Source of the DNA: Candidatus Acetothermia bacterium JdFR-50
Lineage (GTDB): Bacteria > Bipolaricaulota > Bipolaricaulia > Bipolaricaulales > Bipolaricaulaceae
DNA length: 12,301 bases
Assembly: GCA_002010365.1 (NCBI GenBank)
Contig: MTNL01000021.1
Span: 7 to 12,307 of the forward strand
Reading direction: 5' to 3'
The notes below the pieces were generated by a model. That model searched no databases. It was not told the DNA's origin and saw only the letters and a list, made by a program, of their open reading frames with translations. This document shows, one piece after another, positions 3,190 to 9,940 of the stretch (its first letter is position 1; every line of letters begins with the position of its first letter). The position numbers and the translations under genes are program-made.

Positions 3190-3204
3190 GTCCCGGCACG
3201 GGCG

Positions 3205-3219
3205 TGTCTTGACAAGACA
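3205..3219. repeat. 15-bp perfect palindrome after ispF
   Basis: TGTCTTG and CAAGACA flank a central A, 16 nt after the ispF stop codon. It is not followed by a T-run, so it is not a typical terminator. It marks the boundary between the conserved gene run and the decayed insertion sequence and could be an operator, a recombination relic or coincidence. The embedded TTGACA (3209-3214) has no matching -10 at 16-18 nt. From here to about 3400 no intact gene is seen. Confidence 0.5.
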
Positions 3220-3300
3220 GAGAACGGATACTCCCGGGCCAAGTTCGCGGCAGCCGAGAAAAGGGCACAGGGTTTTCTTAGGTTCTTAAGGTCCATCGCC

Positions 3301-4238
3301 GAAATCGTGTGTCCTTTTGTCTTTCCGTGAAATGGACGAGCCCTTTCAAGTCCCGCTTTTCGTAAGTAGTGTCCCAGAGGAGGGAAGGCTTGCGTGCGAG
3401 ACAAAACGCGCGACTGTATCCCAGAGCATCTCCCGCCTCATCCAGGTGACAGAGGAGGAAGTGAAGGTATGGAACGGTCGCCCCCTCTCTCCCGGGAGTA
3501 CCACGCCATTTACATGGCCCACCTTCGTGAGCGCAAGGAGAGGGAAGGAGGCCAAAGAGCCGGTGTACGTAGCCCTGGGAGTGAAGGCCAATGGGGCGAG
3601 GAAGGTTTTGGGGTTCTGGCTTTCGGAACCGAAGGTGAGTTGACTCACGACTGGAAGGCGGTATTGCGGGAGCTTTGGGATCGAGGGGTGCGGGAAGTCA
3701 AGGTCTTCGTGAACGACGCTCTCCCCGGGATAGAGGAGGCGATCCGAGAGCTCTTTCCCGGATCGAAGTCGCAGCTCTGTGGGGCCCACACCTTAAGGCA
3801 CACCCTCTCCCAGGTGCGAAAGGGCTATCGGGCCGCCATGGTGGAGGATCTGGAAGCCATTTACCGGGTGAATACACAGAAAAAGGGGGACTGGGAGGCC
3901 CTGGTGGAATCGGAAAGGAGGTAGGCCAAGAAGTCCCCGAAGCTTGTGGCGAGATGGGTGGAGAAAAGCTATGAGCTGTTGGAATTCCTCAACCATCCCA
4001 AACCGATCCGGTCCTCCCTTTACCTTACCAACCAGCTTGAGCGGTTGATGAAGGAAGTGAAGAGAAGGACGCGGACGGTAGGAGTGTTCGGATGTCCCGA
4101 GGCGTTGGAGAAGGTCTCATACTTAGTGCTGGTGGAAAAAGAGCGGACGGGTTTGGGCAGGGAGGTCCTTGGATATGCAAAAACTCAAACGGGAAACTGC
4201 CATGGCATCGGGATACACAAAATGAGGCACTGCTAAAT
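3301..4238 (+). mobile_element. decayed IS256/Mutator-family insertion sequence, copy 1
   Basis: Remnant element holding a broken transposase in plus orientation. The right end (4215-4238) contains CACAAAATGAGGCAC, which matches 13 of 15 bases of CACAAAATGTGACAC, the corresponding outer repeat of the better-preserved copy at 8877-9836. The left end is much weaker: GTGTGTCCTTTTGTC around 3307-3321 resembles the same repeat with a short deletion. At about 0.94 kb it is shorter than the usual roughly 1.3 kb of the family, and the transposase N-terminal region is not recognisable, so an internal or left-side deletion is likely. Confidence 0.75.
3346..4236 (+). pseudogene. IS256-type transposase, frameshifted and with stop codon
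   Basis: The protein is spread over two frames. In one frame VSQSISRLIQVTEEEVKVW then NGRPL (about 3408-3489), later VYVALGVKANGARKVLGFWL; in the other frame, SREYHAIYMAHL between these and then LTHDWKAVLRELWDRGVREVKVFVNDALPGIEEAIRELFPGSKSQLCGAH onward. The latter is the typical Mutator core (W..L..L..RGV..V..F..D.LPG...AI...FP...Q.C..H). A TAG at 3922-3924 interrupts the frame, after which the same frame continues with LNHPKPIRSSLYLTNQLER and VKRRTRTVGVFG, the usual C-terminal block. The aspartate of VNDALPG and the glutamate of NQLER remain, but the first DDE aspartate (expected near YMAHL) is lost. The N-terminal third is missing. It is non-functional. Confidence 0.85.
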
Positions 4239-4462
4239 ATCCCCCAAATCTGTGCATACCTACTTCAGACCCATGTTGCCACGGTCTTCAACAGATGTTC
4301 CCACACCAAATCCAAATGGCAGATCCGATGATCCCTAATGTGTTCAGGAAAGCGCCCCCATTTTACGCCTCCAATCCTTCCGCCACCTTCGAGGTATAAT
4401 GAAAATGGGAATACCACATCTTGTGGACTTCCCCATGAATCCAACGAGGAGGTGGAGTGCAG
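4239..4462. other. intergenic stretch upstream of the riboswitch
   Basis: No gene recognised. A perfect -10 hexamer TATAAT at 4395-4400 could start the transcript carrying the riboswitch, with a leader of roughly 185 nt, but no good -35 hexamer sits 16-18 nt upstream. Short overlapping reading frames on both strands here resemble no known family and are probably chance. Confidence 0.35.
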
Positions 4463-4493
4463 TCGGATTGCCGAAAGGCCTAACCGGTTTTTT
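4463..4493 (+). terminator. stem-loop with six-T run upstream of the aptamer
   Basis: CGG, TT and GCC (4464-4472) pair with GGC, AA and CCG (4477-4486) around a GAAA loop, followed by six Ts (4488-4493). The form is that of an intrinsic terminator. It lies directly before, not after, the c-di-GMP aptamer, so it could end readthrough from the IS side or be part of the switch. An alternative fold pairs GCCGAAA (4470-4476) with TTTCGGC (4491-4497), which takes over the 5' strand of the aptamer P1 helix. Confidence 0.55.
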
Positions 4494-4587
4494 CGGCGTC
4501 CCGATAAAGGCAAACCCGGAGAGATCCGGGGACGCAAAGTCGCAGGCCCTCCCGCACCACAGGTGGCGAAGGGTGGCTGGACCGCCG
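4494..4587 (+). promoter_or_regulatory. cyclic di-GMP-I (GEMM-I) riboswitch
   Basis: RNA aptamer for the second messenger c-di-GMP. The most conserved blocks of the class are present in order: AGGCAAACC (4508-4516), a hairpin CCGGA-GAGA-TCCGG with a GNRA tetraloop, then the invariant GGGACGCAAAG (4529-4539), then a second hairpin region with CCACAGGTGG (4557-4566), GGGTGGCTGG and a closing strand. P1 closes by CGGCG-TCC (4494-4501) with GGA-C-CGCCG (4579-4587, one bulged C). It can be extended by TT (4492-4493) with AA (4588-4589). The aptamer ends 4 nt before the ATG of the protease gene, so translation control is likely: forming P1 would tie up bases right at the start site. The sequence match is strong; the direction of control is inferred. 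Confidence 0.9.
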
Positions 4588-4591
4588 AAGG

Positions 4592-5722
4592 ATGTCAAGA
4601 AAACTTCACAAATGGTTGGTAATTTGTGGCGCAGTTCTTCTTTCCCTTTCTGTTCTCCTAGGTACCTCATGGTACAAAACTCTAAATAGGATTAATCAAA
4701 AGCAATCTCAGGATGTCGCGGATGAAATGAGTTTAGAGGGGGCGGGTGGAGCATTTCTGCCTGCCCAGGATACGGTTCAATGGGGGCTGACCGCGATCAG
4801 GGCTCCGACGGCATGGCGGGTGACCAGCGGATCGGCTGAAGTCGTGGTTGCGGTCATCGATTCGGGTATCGACCACCGCATACCGGAGCTCGAGGCGATG
4901 ATGTGGCGAAACCCCGGGGAGATCCCGGGGAATGGGGTTGATGATGACCGAAACGGCTATGTAGACGACGTTTTTGGGTGGGATTTCCGAGACGATGATC
5001 CAAGCTCCCTGACCGGCACACCGATTTACTGGCATGGCACTTTCGTTGCCGGTTTAATCGCTGCTACCCATAATCCCATCTTGAACACGGGAGGCGTTGC
5101 TCCAGGAACTCGGATTATGGACCTCAGGTTTCTCGATTCCAGGGGACTTTTTTATACCAACGATTGGGGAAAGCTGATACGTGCGATCAATTATGCGGTG
5201 CGTAATGGGGCGCGAATCATAAATCTCTCCATTTACTCCAAAGTGATCCCCCCGGAATCGGTGCGACAGGCGCTCCACCGGGCGATGGAAAAAGGGGTCC
5301 TGGTGGTGGGGATCGTAGGGAATACTGGGACCCGTGTGGGGTATTTCGGACGCTGGAGCGAGGTGGTTGCGGTAGGAGCTGTGGATGAGGAAGGAGGCGT
5401 GGCCGCCTTTTCCAACCGCGGCCCCGAGGTCGCTCTGGTCGGCCCGGGAGTCGACATTGTTTCCCAGGGGATGGGTGGATTGCCGCGGACCGCCTCCGGG
5501 ACCTCCTTCGCCGCTCCACATGTAGCAGGGGTTGCGGCGCTTCTCCTTTCCATCAGTCCCAACCTCACCCCGGCCGAGCTCCTCGAGTACCTCCAGACAA
5601 CGGCCAAGGACCTGGGCGAGCCAGGGAAGGACTCCGCCACGGGAGCGGGCCTGGTGGATGCTGCCGCCGCGGTGGAGGCGGTGAAGGCCGCTATCGAAAA
5701 AGGAGAGCTATTCGGCAGGTGA
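4592..5722 (+). CDS. membrane-anchored subtilisin-like serine protease (S8)
   Basis: Predicted exported peptidase of the subtilase family, 376 residues. A short basic N-terminus (MSRKLHK) is followed by one hydrophobic segment (about 8-26) that is either an uncleaved anchor or a signal peptide; the catalytic domain (about 60-365) would face outside. The triad is intact: Asp90 in VVAVIDSGIDH, His148 in WHGTFVAG, and Ser305 in ASGTSFAAPHVAG. Asn244 in GIVGNTG is the oxyanion-hole residue. VDDDRNGYVDDVFGWDF (about 116-132) is the typical insert of the fervidolysin-like/bacterial group. There is little room for a propeptide (27-60). The ATG at 4592 is the first in-frame start, but AAGG abuts it directly, so spacing is poor; TTG 4616 has no better site. 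A c-di-GMP riboswitch sits immediately upstream, making this its regulated gene. Substrates are unknown; a surface adhesin or matrix protein would fit the c-di-GMP control. Confidence 0.92.
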   Translation: MSRKLHKWLVICGAVLLSLSVLLGTSWYKTLNRINQKQSQDVADEMSLEGAGGAFLPAQDTVQWGLTAIRAPTAWRVTSGSAEVVVAVIDSGIDHRIPELEAMMWRNPGEIPGNGVDDDRNGYVDDVFGWDFRDDDPSSLTGTPIYWHGTFVAGLIAATHNPILNTGGVAPGTRIMDLRFLDSRGLFYTNDWGKLIRAINYAVRNGARIINLSIYSKVIPPESVRQALHRAMEKGVLVVGIVGNTGTRVGYFGRWSEVVAVGAVDEEGGVAAFSNRGPEVALVGPGVDIVSQGMGGLPRTASGTSFAAPHVAGVAALLLSISPNLTPAELLEYLQTTAKDLGEPGKDSATGAGLVDAAAAVEAVKAAIEKGELFGR

Positions 5723-5766
5723 TCTTGGAGATTTGCTTGGTAAGGGCGAGGTCCGTGATATAACAA

Positions 5767-6004
5767 AAGGAGCTAGTTGCATTCTTGGAGAGGGCTCACA
5801 GGATGTTCGGGGACAAAAAGCGATCCTGAGACTGGTACGTAGCCTGGATCCTGTACTCGCGTCAGGCTGGGGTCTTGGCACCGGAAAGTAACTCCAGGAT
5901 TACCTTGAACTGCGGGGTGAACTTTTGTTAGTTGCCCATTCCGATCCCCTCCTTGGACACTAACTTTCTCTGAAGGAGATGTCCAAATTCAGGGGACCAC
6001 TACA
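5767..6004. mobile_element. scrambled remnant of an IS3-family element (orfA part)
   Basis: On the minus strand, an IS3-like end GTAGTGGTCCCCTGAATTTG (plus-strand 5984-6003) leads into an AAGGAGGGG ribosome-binding site and an ATG at 5939. This opens a degenerate OrfA N-terminus (MGN-stop-QKFTPQFKVILELLSGAKTPA-stop-REYRIQ), the helix-turn-helix start typical of IS3/IS150-type OrfA. The expected continuation is instead found on the plus strand at 5767-5820 as KELVAFLERAHRMFGDKK, the usual OrfA tail. Head and tail are thus in opposite orientation with a junction near 5821-5835, implying inversion or two overlapping remnants. No orfB is present. The element is dead. Confidence 0.6.
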
Positions 6005-6192
6005 CACTAACTACCTGGCCTTTAACCCCTTAAGACTCTGCCGCCTCCAACACCCACCGGAACTTGGGCGCCAAACTTCAGTTCTGTCGCTTCCCTCTGT
6101 ACCCCCAGCGGGACCAAAGAGCTCCACAACTCTTAGGTACTCCGGGCGATTTCACTCTAGGCATGTACTTCTGCTCATCGCTCTATCGCCAA
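6005..6192. other. intergenic stretch without recognised feature
   Basis: Between the IS3 remnant and the 3' end of the minus-strand secreted protein nothing recognisable was found on either strand. CAAGG and CCTTG at 6194-6207 form a small hairpin overlapping the last codons of the neighbouring gene, without a T-run. Confidence 0.4.
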
Positions 6193-6723
6193 TCAAGGAC
6201 CTCCTTGTCCCGGGGATTGTTTCGGGGAAGCTGAAGGGAAGATCTCGAACACCAAGGTTCGCTCGAGCAAAATCTTTTTTGTGATTTCCTCTCGCGGGAC
6301 TATCACCGAAAATTCCAATATCAATCGGTGCTCTCCTAGTCCTCCTCGCTTAAGGAGGACACTTTTGCAGCCCAGGGGCAGGAGTTTCTTCTCGAAAAGG
6401 AAATAGGTGCCCGCAGGAACCACCTGTTCCTTTCTGCAATCTAACTTTACTGTTACTACCCAAGGAATATTGCTACGCACTGCCAGGACTATTACTCCCT
6501 TGTAAACAGCAAAATCCTCCGCTGGGCGTGGAAGTTCGAAAGGGTGGGGCACCGCTCTTTCAGCTGTTTCACGGGGGAATTCCGATAGGGTCTGCCGTGG
6601 CAATATGCTCCAAACGATCGTCACCTTCCCCTCTCCTTTTCCGAAGACGCATAAAGAGGCAATAAAGAAAATCGCACACACTACATACAAGCACCGTCCT
6701 TGGCTACACCCGTTTTTCATCAT
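6193..6723 (-). CDS. hypothetical secreted protein
   Basis: A 176-residue product with a probable signal peptide: MMKNGCSQGRC, then a hydrophobic stretch LYVVCAIFFIASLCVFG ending near residue 28. The rest is rich in beta-strand-like alternation (GKVTIVWSILP, VYKGVIVLAVRSNIPWVVTV, SVLLKRGGLGEHRLILEFSVIV), suggesting a small exported beta-sandwich. I recognise no family. ATG 6723 has a GAGG about 9 nt upstream; ATG 6720 directly follows and is equally possible. TATATT on the minus strand about 30 nt upstream resembles a -10 box, without a clear -35. It stands alone on the minus strand inside the IS-bracketed island, between two IS scars, and its codon use is less GC-extreme than in the flanking blocks. 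It is probably a real gene because it has both a leader and a ribosome-binding site. Confidence 0.6.
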   Translation of the reverse strand: MMKNGCSQGRCLYVVCAIFFIASLCVFGKGEGKVTIVWSILPRQTLSEFPRETAERAVPHPFELPRPAEDFAVYKGVIVLAVRSNIPWVVTVKLDCRKEQVVPAGTYFLFEKKLLPLGCKSVLLKRGGLGEHRLILEFSVIVPREEITKKILLERTLVFEIFPSASPKQSPGQGGP

Positions 6724-7002
6724 GTCTAATCCCTCGGCCAGAAAATATATCGTCGCAGGGCCAAAACGCTAGCGAGGCGTGCCCGAGCGATGATCTCCCT
6801 AAGCCGGAGGAGGTTCCACGCCGACAGCACGTTCTTGTTCCGAAAAACGGGAGATACCAAAGAGTGCGCCTAGAGTTGCTCCGCTTTGGTGAGGAAGGTT
6901 TTTTGACGCCGCGGATATGATCCACTGTATCTACTCGAATTTACAAACGACAGACTGTCTGTTGGGCTCCTTGATGAGGGCTGGCGCAGCATGATCGCGT
7001 AG
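6724..7002. other. intergenic stretch with possible gene remnant
   Basis: No intact gene. A plus-strand frame without a start codon ends at TGA 6918-6920 and reads protein-like near its end (PKPEEVPRRQHVLVPKNGRY then QRVRLELLRFGEEGFLTPRI). It may be the tail of a lost gene, but no family was recognised. A perfect palindrome, ACAGAC-T-GTCTGT, lies at 6950-6962 and could be an operator. The minus-strand frame over the same bases looks like a shadow. Confidence 0.25.
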
Positions 7003-7053
7003 GATTTGGTCTTTACTTTAATAAATTCAAAAGAAAAGACCTGACCCCAAATC
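7003..7053. repeat. hairpin-forming repeat with TCAGGTC core (MITE/REP-like)
   Basis: The right arm read in reverse complement is GATTTGGGGTCAGGTCTTTT. The left arm (7003 onward) is GATTTGG directly followed by TCTTTACTTT, that is, the same sequence with seven bases (GGTCAGG) deleted. The arms flank a short AT-rich centre (about 7020-7028). The original was probably a near-perfect palindrome of about 60 bp. From memory, GGGGTCAGGTCTT-type ends are common around IS200-like/REP-associated transposases in environmental bacteria; no such transposase is in this window, so this would be a non-autonomous copy. Confidence 0.6.
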
Positions 7054-7086
7054 GTAATTTTTAAATCTAATTTATGATATTGGTAA

Positions 7087-7116
7087 TTGTTTGTTAACGC
7101 AACTTTGTCCTATAAT
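7087..7116 (+). promoter_or_regulatory. putative promoter of the HD-GYP gene
   Basis: A perfect -10 TATAAT (7111-7116) has TTGTTT (7087-7092; 4 of 6) 18 nt upstream. The -10 ends only 3 nt before ATG 7120, so the transcript would begin at or just inside the first codons. Either the message is leaderless, starting near ATG 7120 or GTG 7129, or the true promoter lies further upstream. Confidence 0.4.
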
Positions 7117-7119
7117 TAG

Positions 7120-8697
7120 ATGGTTATTGTGGGGAGCTTTAAGCGATATTGTTTTATCTTTTGTTTGCTTTGCTTTCTTGTAATCCTCTCTGTGGGAGTG
7201 ATTACCCTCTCCCATTGGATTTACGTAAAAGAGGTGGCCAGACTCATCGATGTGGGAGAGGATGTCTTTCAACAACTCAACATCACGATTAGCGAGCGTT
7301 TCCGCCATTTTTTGGAAGAAATAACTTTTCTGTTAGAGACACCTGAACTAAAGGAGTTCGTAGAGAACGATTTTCGGCTCGACGGACATGTGAGTGAAGT
7401 CCAAAGCTTGTTCTTGCGTTTTGCCTCTTTGCATCAAGAGTTCCACCGGGCAAGGATTATCGCTCATTCCGGTTGGGAAGTGATGCGAGTCGACAGAAGC
7501 GATGACGGGATTCCAGTGCTTGCACTTCCTCAGGAGCTCCAATACAGAGGTGACAGTTACTACTTTAATAAAACAATAGAGTTTAGCGAAGGCGAATTTT
7601 ATTTTTCACCGCTTAACGTTGAGGACGATAAAATTATTATTCAGATAGCTACACCTCTCTTCGACTCCGCAGGAAAAAAGAAAGGCATTGTGGTTTTGGA
7701 CATCTACGCGAAGACCCTTTTCTATCCCTTATCCACTAAGCTGTTCCTCTCAACAGATAAAGGACAATGGTTCGTTTTAACTCCTGAAGGCAAATTTGAT
7801 ATTTGTGAAACCTGTGAGTTCGACGAACTTTTGCAAGTGGAACAATTAAGGTTAAAAAAATTCGGTCGTGGTCTAATCTTTTACCAAATGATGGAGCCCT
7901 GGCCCGGTTGGCGGCTAATGGTCGTGAAGGAGATGCCTTCTGATCCTTTATACATTTTCCGTCTGCAGCTGATATTGGGAGCAACGATGGGCTTCAACGC
8001 GATATTGGTGTTAGTCTTCATTATCTTTGCATACTTTCTACGACAAACTCGAAGGCTCAATCGGTTTCAAAGAGGGATGATTTACTCCCTTACCTTGCTT
8101 GCCGAAGAGCGCGATCAGGAGACTGCAAATCACCTTGAGCGCGTGCAGCGTTACTCCGTTTGCCTAGCCCAGGAACTCCGTAAGGACCCACGCTATCGAC
8201 AAGCGATAACGAAGGAGTTTATAACGAATCTTTCCCTAGCTGGCCCCCTACATGACATCGGCAAGGTGGGTGTCCCGGACTATGTGCTACATAAACAAGG
8301 CTCTCTCAACAAAGAGGAGAGGCGCCTCATGGAGATGCATGTGCGCATCGGGTCTCAGATCCTGGAACGGCTGATACGTCAGTTCGGCCTTAAAGAGCGG
8401 TATCTCTGGATGGCTAAAAATATATGTGCTTACCATCACGAGCGCTATGACGGAACAGGTTATCCGGAAGGACTAAAGGGAGAAGAGATTCCTCTAGAGG
8501 CTCGGATCTTTGCGGTGGCTGACGCTTACGATGCAATTCGCTCCAAGCGTCCCTATAAGGGACCGCTATCGCACGAGGAAGCAGTAAGACGAATTAAAGA
8601 GGGAGCCGGTCGATACTTTGACCCTCGGGTAGTGGAAGCTTTTCTTCGGTGTGAGAAGGAATTCCAACGAATTAGTGAATCTTTTAAAGACAATTAA
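7120..8697 (+). CDS. membrane sensor with dCache and HD-GYP c-di-GMP phosphodiesterase domain
   Basis: Predicted transmembrane receptor that hydrolyses cyclic di-GMP. Of 525 residues, TM1 spans about 11-31. An extracellular double-Cache sensor covers about 35-275 (SGWEVMRVDR and IQIATPLFDSAGKKKGIVVLDI are typical of Cache domains bound by small ligands). TM2 is about 283-306, and a cytoplasmic HD-GYP domain covers about 315-515. Catalytic and metal residues are all visible: NHLERV (His338), HDIGK (His378, Asp379, Lys382), the MHV histidine (407), HHE (439-441), DGTGYP (444-449) and AVADAYDAI (Asp468). The coding sequence is visibly AT-richer than ispF or ychF, pointing to transfer. No Shine-Dalgarno precedes ATG 7120; GTG 7129 is an alternative start. 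It sits in the same IS-bracketed island as a c-di-GMP riboswitch, so it may set the level that the riboswitch reads. The sensed ligand is unknown. Confidence 0.95.
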   Translation: MVIVGSFKRYCFIFCLLCFLVILSVGVITLSHWIYVKEVARLIDVGEDVFQQLNITISERFRHFLEEITFLLETPELKEFVENDFRLDGHVSEVQSLFLRFASLHQEFHRARIIAHSGWEVMRVDRSDDGIPVLALPQELQYRGDSYYFNKTIEFSEGEFYFSPLNVEDDKIIIQIATPLFDSAGKKKGIVVLDIYAKTLFYPLSTKLFLSTDKGQWFVLTPEGKFDICETCEFDELLQVEQLRLKKFGRGLIFYQMMEPWPGWRLMVVKEMPSDPLYIFRLQLILGATMGFNAILVLVFIIFAYFLRQTRRLNRFQRGMIYSLTLLAEERDQETANHLERVQRYSVCLAQELRKDPRYRQAITKEFITNLSLAGPLHDIGKVGVPDYVLHKQGSLNKEERRLMEMHVRIGSQILERLIRQFGLKERYLWMAKNICAYHHERYDGTGYPEGLKGEEIPLEARIFAVADAYDAIRSKRPYKGPLSHEEAVRRIKEGAGRYFDPRVVEAFLRCEKEFQRISESFKDN

Positions 8698-8713
8698 ATT
8701 TGACGATCAACGT

Positions 8714-8729
8714 ACGCTTTTTCAAGCGT
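8714..8729 (+). other. small hairpin after the HD-GYP gene
   Basis: ACGCTT and AAGCGT flank a TTTC loop, 17 nt after the stop codon. There is no T-run after the stem on either strand, so it is at best a weak terminator or a 3'-end stabiliser. The following bases to 8876 hold nothing recognised. Confidence 0.35.
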
Positions 8730-8876
8730 GGGAGTCTGCTATTGGCCTCTGTATTTGAGTAGTGTTTAATACAGGGGGAGTAGCTCTTGGTATCGGTGGC
8801 TTGTGCTGCTTGACTTGCAACGCTCCCTTCACCGCTTTCCTCGTCCAATCGCGATCCACCGGGAGGTGGGGACAAG

Positions 8877-8900
8877 AATTTTGTGTCACATTTTGTGGCG
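8877..8900 (+). repeat. terminal inverted repeat of IS copy 2 (transposase 3' end)
   Basis: Outer end next to the transposase C-terminus. It shares the TTGTGTCAC...TTGTG pattern with 9813-9836 and, in opposite orientation, with 4215-4238 of copy 1. Confidence 0.75.
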
Positions 8901-9772
8901 TGGGATACTTTTTGGCAGACATCTACCCAAAGCCTTTTGGTTTTTTCAAAATCCTTAAGTCTTCGTTTCCATTTGGCTTCTTGCCGCTCACATTCAAGAT
9001 ACAAGAGCTTGTAGATGGTCTCCGGCTTGGGGAACTTATGGCTTTTCCCTTCCGTCCCCCTCCTCCTTTTTGGCCAAAGTAGCCCGTACTTTGTGGACGA
9101 GACTTGTACCAGTCGGCTTTGGGGTAGATCCGCAGGATCGCCTCCTGCATCCCCGGCAGCCCATCGCCCACAAACACCAGCGCTTCCCTTACTCCTAGCT
9201 CCCACAGATCTTCCAACACCTCCTGCCACATCGCGCTGGATTCGCTCGGGAAAAGGTATAACCCCAATACATCCCTGCCCCTCAGGAAACACAACATATA
9301 CCGATCCCTTCCTGATCCCAGAATCATTCCGCACCGCTTTCATAAACAGACCAAGTACGCGATGACGTAGCGTCTCGTGAGGAGGTGGTCCCGAAAAGCC
9401 TCCCTTGTTCCAACACCAGAATCGGTGATCCGGCTGATGGGTACAGTGGGGAGCAGTGGTGCCTACGAAGATGTCCCATCACCTCCCTCACCGTGCGTTC
9501 CGAGACCTCACAGCATACCAGTACCAGGTCGGCGAGGTCGACAGTCCTTCTGGTGTAGGGAGCGAAGGGGGAGGGCTTGAAGCGACCCTGCCGATCGTGG
9601 GGGACGCGGAACTGTACCTGGCCGAAAGGGGTGTCCAGTATTTAGGGGTTGGAGGCCGCTCTTATGTCCCCCGTTTTCCGGAATGAACGCGTCCCGTTCC
9701 AATAAAAGAAGAGCTTGGAGCTTTTCGGTCACCACTTCCCTTACCGTCTCCCGCAGAAGCGCCTCAAGTTCG
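8884..9772 (-). pseudogene. IS256-type transposase, multiply frameshifted and internally deleted
   Basis: Read on the minus strand through several frames in the right order. ELEALLRETVREVVTEKLQA (from 9772) is the usual N-terminal helix. A shifted frame gives TPFGQVQFRVPHDRQGRFKP and YTRRTVDLADLVLVC, then VSERTVREVMGHL. A further frame gives VPISRITDSGVGTREAFRDH and LLTRRYVIAYL, RDRYMLCFLRGRDVLGLYLF, and then MWQEVLEDLWELGVREALVF VGDGLPGMQEAILRIYPKAD, the Mutator core. LVHKVRATLAKKEE follows in another frame. The text then jumps to FPKPETIYKLLYLECERQEA KWKRRLKDFEK, the C-terminal end, so the segment holding the catalytic glutamate is deleted. The plus-strand reading frames over this region are shadows. 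Confidence 0.85.
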
Positions 9773-9812
9773 CCCCTGTCAGAAATGGGGTACCCCCTTA
9801 TCCAAAGTACTT

Positions 9813-9836
9813 CGTCACAATCCGTGACACAGAATT
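9813..9836 (-). repeat. terminal inverted repeat of IS copy 2 (transposase 5' end)
   Basis: Reverse complement reads AATTCTGTGTCACGGATTGT then GACG; pairs with 8877-8900. It lies about 40 nt upstream of the transposase remnant. Confidence 0.75.
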
Positions 9837-9940
9837 AGTTACACCACCCGATTTTTGAAAGAGTTTGTTGATTCAAAGGAATTGTTACAACGTGTTCTCC
9901 GGGTATCCTTGAGCAATCGGCTTTCAAAGGAGGGCGCAGG
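9837..9940. other. short gap upstream of ychF
   Basis: Right junction of the island. No convincing promoter for the ychF operon was found between the IS end and the ribosome-binding site AAAGGAGGG (9926-9934). Promoter activity may lie inside the IS end, or be too divergent to see. Confidence 0.3.

Follow-up and report, generated by a model that had tools for sequence, protein, structure and literature searches.

A class I c-di-GMP riboswitch directly before a subtilase gene in Candidatus Acetothermia bacterium JdFR-50 and a predicted c-di-GMP regulon in Candidatus Bipolaricaulota

Riboswitch and protease gene at the locus

The window analyzed in this work is a stretch of 12,301 nucleotides (nt) from Candidatus Acetothermia bacterium JdFR-50 (assembly GCA_002010365.1, contig MTNL01000021.1, positions 7 to 12,307 of the forward strand), which forms contig C7 of the host genome (G000; 1.29 Mb, 62.8% complete). 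It carries a class I riboswitch for cyclic diguanosine monophosphate (c-di-GMP) directly before the gene of a membrane-anchored S8 protease, and a c-di-GMP-related HD-GYP gene lies further downstream. The window was compared with a set of 40 genomes, the host genome included (codes beginning with G), and with 80 loci from a named genome scan (codes beginning with L), in which most of the closest loci bear the titles Candidatus Bipolaricaulota or Acetothermia. The window probably holds, in our view, one branch of a c-di-GMP regulon in Candidatus Bipolaricaulota, which would control protease and adhesin reciprocally. The features at the center of this reading are the following:

4500..4590 (+): class I c-di-GMP (GEMM-I) riboswitch aptamer (Rfam RF03167 and RF01051, alignment)
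4487..4604 (+): predicted P1 extension covering the ATG at 4592-4594; 4495-4501 pairs with 4590-4596, and 4487-4493 with 4598-4604
4592..5722 (+): membrane-anchored S8 (subtilase) protease, 376 amino acids (Pfam, alignment, PDB profile matches to subtilisins)

Rfam finds a single riboswitch in the window, at 4500-4590 on the forward strand; the best model is RF03167 (c-di-GMP-I-GGC; 65.5 bits, E 5.8e-14, cut-off 59 bits), and the ordinary c-di-GMP-I model RF01051 reaches 61.5 bits against a cut-off of 35. The c-di-GMP-I models gave no match in 14 control genomes. By the model alignment and the Vc2 numbering, G4509, A4536, and C4585 correspond to G20, A47, and C92 of Vc2. In the consensus of RF03167, the base that corresponds to A47 is G, which is presumably what "GGC" in the family name refers to; the window scores above the cut-off of this family and carries A4536 there, as do all 32 aligned riboswitches, the window included. 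G20, A47, and C92 are the ligand-contact residues of Vc2 (PMC4744006), so that under our own mapping the window aptamer has all three. Because A4536 is matched by an invariant A in the alignment, we treat the aptamer as canonical and do not read the GGC label as a changed ligand. Judged by sequence, the window RNA is a canonical class I c-di-GMP aptamer, for which ligand binding is predicted. Five matches in the host genome exceed the cut-offs of both c-di-GMP-I models, and among the 40 genomes searched, 39 have a riboswitch match at E <= 0.001 and 36 one over the cut-off.

The protease starts with the ATG at 4592, and the aptamer ends one base before it, at 4590. The protein matches Peptidase_S8 with a Pfam E value of 2.1e-45, the triad D90, H148, and S305 and the oxyanion residue N244 are invariant across 20 aligned homologues, as expected of an S8 protease, and a membrane anchor is predicted from the N-terminal sequence. 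A preliminary description of this DNA had placed a class I riboswitch directly before an intact, membrane-anchored subtilase, which agrees with these results; its aptamer stands, and the start that it gave, 4494, was slightly wide.

The pair is not confined to the window. In the host genome itself, a riboswitch lies directly ahead of a second S8 protease (contig C17), which shares 61% identity with the window protease across the part matched. The distance test used all 150 riboswitch matches listed for 37 genomes, which are part of a larger number, so that its counts hold among the matches listed; for S8 genes, the strongest 34 protease matches and 18 of the next 21 were taken, three with internal stops being skipped and weaker ones left unused. 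A riboswitch lies within 400 nt upstream of at least 15 of these 34 closest homologues, in 12 genomes by the listed coordinates, and within 400 nt upstream or downstream of at least 18, while none was found within 400 nt of the 18 more distant S8 genes in the 40 genomes. The named scan was searched with a model built from 32 riboswitches, which gave 41 matches in the 80 loci, and in 19 of the loci a riboswitch immediately precedes the protease (14 bear the title Bipolaricaulota or Acetothermia, and five another title: L117, L135, L139, L160, and L163). For 18 of these 19, the distance between the aptamer end and an in-frame start codon is -2 to +1 nt; in the remaining one, L139, the protease frame is broken near its start. 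Some of the riboswitch-paired proteases run off their contigs, and that of G002 has an internal stop. The riboswitch-protease pair is thus, by sequence comparison, conserved.

A general link between GEMM-I riboswitches and any S8 gene was considered and dropped, given the 18 unpaired distant S8 genes in the 40 genomes, though two Elusimicrobia loci of the named scan do show such a pairing. In these (L177:7122-7429 and L179:5509-5821), tandem class I riboswitch matches lie upstream of a distant subtilase of 38-40% identity, with the second copy ending 60-94 nt ahead of the first in-frame start, and the pairing of riboswitch and S8 gene may therefore recur outside Bipolaricaulota. Records titled Thermotoga, Heimdallarchaeota, Neomarinimicrobiota, and Caldisericota also hold proteases of the window's family (L139, L159, L161, L135, L163, L117, and L160), and some of them may be misnamed or misbinned contigs. 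Among the other riboswitches of the host genome, one (L006, G000:C198, 2879-2964) runs into a GTG start and has a strong P1 extension of -15.3 kcal/mol, its contig stopping 228 bases further on. Two more (L008:1271-1346 and L009:325-414, both on the reverse strand) lie ahead of small proteins with signal-peptide-like N-termini, which gave no match in the Pfam search and the second of which runs off its contig.

Gene neighbors and expression platforms in related genomes

Five genomes (G009, G019, G024, G010, and G020) share one gene order, in which the protease, a small protein of about 106 amino acids, and a large secreted protein come one after another, each preceded by a riboswitch. Rfam gives no match before the protease of G011 and G016, but both have the other two riboswitches; the large-protein frame of G010 breaks after 245 amino acids in the assembly, and G016 runs to the end of its contig there. 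G017 and G023 carry the small protein 80-81 nt behind the protease, with no riboswitch between them among the matches listed. Representatives of the small protein are as follows:

L095:4912-5235, L112:118-435, L100:4624-4950, and others: RHH-MshEN proteins
G000:C61:2-166 (-): RHH-MshEN fragment of the host genome, at a contig end

The N-terminus of the small protein is of the RHH type (PF01402 exceeds the cut-off in one of three tested), and its C-terminal half gives profile matches to the c-di-GMP-binding domains of PilF, PilB, and MshE (whole-sequence E from 1.3e-18; MshE 5.2e-5). Its structure model (pLDDT 78.9, pTM 0.50) matches the fold of MshE with c-di-GMP at a root-mean-square deviation of 0.9 Å and a probability of 1.00, but with an E value of 0.046, and no fold match reaches E <= 0.001. 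The MshEN motif is RLGxx(L/V/I)(L/V/I)xxG(L/V/I)(L/V/I)xxxxLxxxLxxQ, in tandem (PMC5013675), and two such motifs are recognizable in 13 aligned small proteins, with R, the first L, and G replaced in some of them. We therefore predict that the small protein, termed RHH-MshEN here, is a c-di-GMP-binding transcription factor. The family is present in 34 of the 40 genomes. For the distance test, 50 of the 59 listed genes were used (the last nine, partial or weak and including G000:C61, were omitted), and at least 26 of the 50 have a riboswitch within 400 nt upstream.

The large protein has 1670 amino acids with DUF7507 and Ig-like repeats in G009 and 892 amino acids with Ig- and cadherin-like repeats in G001; its size, secretion signal, and repeats suggest an adhesin. 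A match to it is present in 14 of the 40 genomes, although some of these matches are weak or restricted to repeats. Protease and adhesin-like genes each stand behind a c-di-GMP riboswitch in G009, G019, G010, and G020, which belong to related genera, and in the window's own genus an adhesin-like gene follows a riboswitch and RHH-MshEN in three of six genomes (G001, G003, and G005). In those three genomes, the protease and the adhesin lie on different contigs, as would suit a general surface or housekeeping protease with a substrate other than the adhesin-like protein. We hold this alternative to be a serious contender, though not the favored one, as the two genes adjoin, with only RHH-MshEN between them, in G009, G019, G024, G010, G020, and G011.

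Pairing and folding calculations give each of the three riboswitch types a different expression platform. "Adhesin-type" here means a riboswitch directly after an RHH-MshEN gene; a surface protein was seen behind it in G009, G019, G010, G020, and G011 and a secreted-looking frame in G024, whereas G016, L136, L138, L139, L143, and L148 were unchecked in this respect. The RHH-MshEN and adhesin-type riboswitches of G020, near copies of those of G010, stayed outside the duplex, folding, and terminator tests, and C40, which offered no anchor, stayed outside the duplex test. In each shuffle test (5000 shuffles), the partners were shuffled without regard to common descent.

In the window, the P1-extension duplex amounts to -14.2 kcal/mol, and the modeled probability that the start codon is unpaired is 0.00 with the aptamer forced and 0.68 or 0.50 in the free state, depending on flank length. 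For the protease riboswitches (27 sequences reduced to 20 non-redundant ones), the mean duplex energy is -10.99 kcal/mol versus -7.18 (standard deviation 0.71) after shuffling, and none of the 5000 shuffles is as strong. The P1 extension is retained in differing sequences of several genera, and no such excess is found in the RHH-MshEN (2919/5000) or adhesin-type (1948/5000) riboswitches. Start-codon folding could be evaluated for 21 of the 27 protease rows and not for the other six; 14 of the 21, the window included, have a more open start codon in the free state, and the mean unpaired values are 0.26 with the aptamer and 0.46 without it. Because the start codon is mostly more open without the aptamer, we read the protease riboswitch, with moderate confidence, as turned OFF by c-di-GMP.

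It could instead be an ON switch or not switch at all, with the extended P1 present whether or not the ligand is bound and the tuning coming from elsewhere. The remaining rows leave room for this: five of them (C17, G004C15, G005, G024, and L136) pair the start codon to much the same degree in both modeled states, and in two (G019 and G036) it is even less open when free. Set against the 14 rows that open without the aptamer, this explanation appears unlikely to us, without being negligible.

In the RHH-MshEN leaders, the 3' strand of P3/P1 pairs with a downstream arm to form a terminator-like stem in 11 of 11 cases, at a mean of -22.5 kcal/mol versus -9.7 for the adhesin type and -10.2 for the protease type (51/5000 shuffles). 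At least four U follow the stem in nine of the 11 and an interrupted U-run in the other two, and U-runs are found in none of the 11 adhesin-type leaders. Since aptamer and terminator are mutually exclusive, the RHH-MshEN riboswitch is predicted to be an ON switch. In the adhesin-type leaders, the 5' strand of P3 pairs with the Shine-Dalgarno sequence and the start codon; the latter is unpaired at 0.47-0.93 with the aptamer forced and at no more than 0.03 when free in all 11 rows (L138 and L139 being identical). Mean openness of the Shine-Dalgarno sequence is 0.67 versus 0.22, but G016 shows no difference and L148 only a small one. The excess over shuffles is weak here (213/5000) because the sequences are alike, and this riboswitch is likewise predicted to be an ON switch.

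The HD-GYP gene and the surroundings in the window

Beyond the riboswitch and the protease, the window contains the following features:

7120..8697 (+): dCache-HD-GYP, predicted c-di-GMP phosphodiesterase (Pfam, alignment, model and PDB fold matches, relatives)
6193..6723 (-): orphan protein whose N-terminus has a hydrophobic stretch (open reading frame)
3317..4233 (+): Mutator-family transposase remnants, left boundary (PF00872, Transposase_mut, in three open reading frame pieces)
8926..9327 (-): Mutator-family transposase remnant, right boundary (PF00872)

The HD-GYP gene begins 1397 bases after the protease ends and matches HD_5 in Pfam (E 2.2e-33). The HD, HHE, and DGxGYP residues are all present in the alignment, and the PDB matches of its structure model include HD-GYP and Cache-type sensor structures, in keeping with an HD-GYP phosphodiesterase, although the mean pLDDT is only 69.7 and the pTM 0.43; the dCache part remains below the Pfam cut-off (14.3 versus 45 bits, E 0.029). 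A dCache-HD-GYP enzyme with its catalytic residues about 1.4 kb past the protease, as in the preliminary description, is what we find, with the qualification on the dCache part, and the insertion-sequence scars said to bound the set are confirmed as the Mutator-type remnants listed above.

From this arrangement, a self-contained module had been proposed, in which an external ligand acts on the window HD-GYP, lowers c-di-GMP, and thereby changes the synthesis of the neighboring protease. Both genes do lie between the transposase remnants, and in G002, G003, and G004 HD-GYPs of the same subfamily sit about 4 kb upstream of the riboswitch-protease gene on the same strand. The window HD-GYP is only 47-49% identical to these, which are 71-76% identical to one another, and among the 40 genomes the one that it matches best is that of G007 (53%); by these identities, it is a different paralogue and not the orthologue of the HD-GYPs near the riboswitch-protease genes of G002-G004. 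No HD-GYP match lies on the contigs that hold the protease gene's two closest relatives (G003:C47, 79%, and G004:C15, 72%), of which G003:C47 is only 10.5 kb long. Moreover, c-di-GMP is diffusible and the host genome has a GGDEF gene (C177) and further HD-GYP matches (C138, C168, and C55), so that the messenger pool is shared and the set is not self-contained. We accordingly consider the module improbable and have dropped the HD-GYP as a fixed partner of the window protease, as the pairing is not conserved in the same form.

What survives of that proposal is a riboswitch-controlled surface protease, without a dedicated HD-GYP partner. Control of an S8 surface protease by a riboswitch, and thus surface proteolysis governed at the RNA level, gains support from the relatives, in which a giant secreted protein with its own riboswitch adjoins the protease. 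A search for GEMM-I, S8, and HD-GYP together in other genomes had also been suggested, with protease and HD-GYP never co-occurring as the outcome that would speak against the link. In four of the five family genomes with a near full-length match to this HD-GYP subfamily (G000, G002, G003, and G004; the fifth is G007, whose contigs are short), the HD-GYP does lie no more than about 4 kb from a riboswitch-protease gene, so the genes co-occur at the level of the subfamily, and the same-form pairing does not recur. A loose association between protease and HD-GYP, short of a self-contained module, may thus exist.

The HD-GYP gene has a guanine-plus-cytosine content (GC) of 0.459 and a GC at third codon positions (GC3) of 0.489, versus 0.646-0.694 and 0.81-0.88 for recA, ispF, ychF, EamA, and ppc, and recX has a GC of 0.652 and a GC3 of 0.70. 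Compared with those genes, these low values suggest that the HD-GYP gene was acquired. The stretch 3200-9940, which lies between the high-GC genes recA-recX-ispF and ychF and contains the transposase remnants, is of low GC throughout (0.46-0.58, except for the riboswitch at 0.67) and looks like an acquired island. The orphan protein at 6193-6723 (-) gave no match in the Pfam search. At 274-1152, the window encodes a protein with a Lamin Tail Domain (PF00932), and the adhesin-like protein of G009 has two stretches matching the same family.

The proposed regulon and known systems

At the level of sequence, the aptamer contacts are canonical, the protease start abuts P1, and the pairing that extends P1 is kept across several genera. 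We propose that binding of c-di-GMP would stabilize P1, bury the start codon, and lower protease synthesis, and that a drop in c-di-GMP would allow the protease to be made at the membrane. In related genera, c-di-GMP would raise the RHH-MshEN regulator through its own class I riboswitch by avoidance of the terminator, and the giant surface protein through another class I riboswitch by release of its Shine-Dalgarno sequence and start codon. At high c-di-GMP, the adhesin would be made and its cutter stopped, whereas at low c-di-GMP the protease would shed the surface protein, and the nearby HD-GYP would merely add to the lowering of the shared pool. A conserved regulon of protease, RHH-MshEN, and adhesin-like protein with opposite control is, as a prediction, a better reading than a self-contained module.

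Several observations weigh against this regulon. Among the matches listed, 19 of the 34 close protease homologues have no riboswitch within 400 nt upstream, and by our own reading of the sequences the protease starts seem to lack a Shine-Dalgarno sequence at normal spacing. Five riboswitches of other genes also show the P1 extension (mean -11.10 versus -6.70 kcal/mol, 83/5000), which means that the design is not confined to proteases; the shuffles disregard common descent; and a U-run occurs within 42 nt after P1 in six of the 27 protease leaders. The start codon, as noted, does not open in seven of the 21 evaluable rows. In the host genome, RHH-MshEN is represented only by the contig-edge fragment on C61, and no adhesin homologue was found in this genome, 62.8% complete as it is, nor in G002 and G004 of its genus. 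That the RNA senses another molecule, as its higher score with RF03167 than with RF01051 might suggest and as Weinberg et al. in 2017 reportedly considered for GGC variants, is very improbable, since the contact triad is canonical with A at the differing position throughout, which led us to reject a changed ligand on account of the GGC label, and since the RHH-MshEN neighbors in relatives likewise point to c-di-GMP.

A further and more tentative proposal, which we put forward as possible rather than probable, is that the three-gene locus, with a separate class I riboswitch and a distinct mechanism for every gene and with opposite effects on the adhesin and the protease that sheds it, represents an independent invention of the logic known from PPEP-1 of Clostridioides difficile and provides a c-di-GMP transcription factor whose domains are paired in a new way. 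The pairing of RHH and MshEN domains did not turn up in the literature searched, nor was the riboswitch, protease, and adhesin arrangement of Bipolaricaulota found described there, subscription papers being mostly outside that search. If this is true, adhesin and protease were paired at the riboswitch level on more than one occasion, with unrelated proteases, and a testable attachment-and-release circuit would be at hand for a phylum that is mainly known through metagenomes. The locus would also offer a class I riboswitch in which an extended P1 takes in the start codon, three different expression platforms for a single aptamer type in one locus, and an RHH-MshEN c-di-GMP transcription factor, all of them predicted.

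In the LapD/LapG/LapA system, c-di-GMP keeps a dedicated protease from cutting a giant adhesin by post-translational means, with a cysteine protease and a membrane receptor. The protection of a giant adhesin from its protease is what we propose here as well; unlike LapG, the window protease is a serine protease of the S8 family, and the control acts on mRNA.

The small RHH-MshEN protein resembles the known MshEN receptor domain in its tandem 24-residue motifs, with some substitutions, and differs in being joined to an RHH DNA-binding domain, the partners named in the passages on MshEN being ATPase, glycosyltransferase "and other domains" (PMC5013675). It is also like CdbA of Myxococcus xanthus, an RHH protein that binds c-di-GMP (PMC7156744), binding by RHH-MshEN being predicted. 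The use of a class I aptamer to switch a surface adhesin ON, predicted here, is known from Bc2 of Bacillus thuringiensis, which precedes the cap adhesin gene; Bc2 differs in acting by transcription read-through, and the passage that describes it names no protease partner (PMC6366702).

The closest parallel in overall logic is C. difficile, for which the same source describes a class I riboswitch of zmpI (PPEP-1, CD2830) that lowers expression with c-di-GMP and class II riboswitches that raise the PPEP-1 substrates CD2831 and CD3246, the opposing regulation being proposed to act together (PMC6366702). As in that system, a surface protease gene and an adhesin-like gene are each under a c-di-GMP riboswitch in the related genera, and the directions predicted here, protease OFF and adhesin ON, are those of C. 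difficile. The C. difficile system employs a zinc metalloprotease, sortase-dependent substrates, class I OFF switches acting by termination, and class II ON switches (PMC6366702), whereas the system of Bipolaricaulota, in another phylum, would combine an S8 protease, class I aptamers only, burial of the start codon for the protease, and an additional RHH-MshEN gene.

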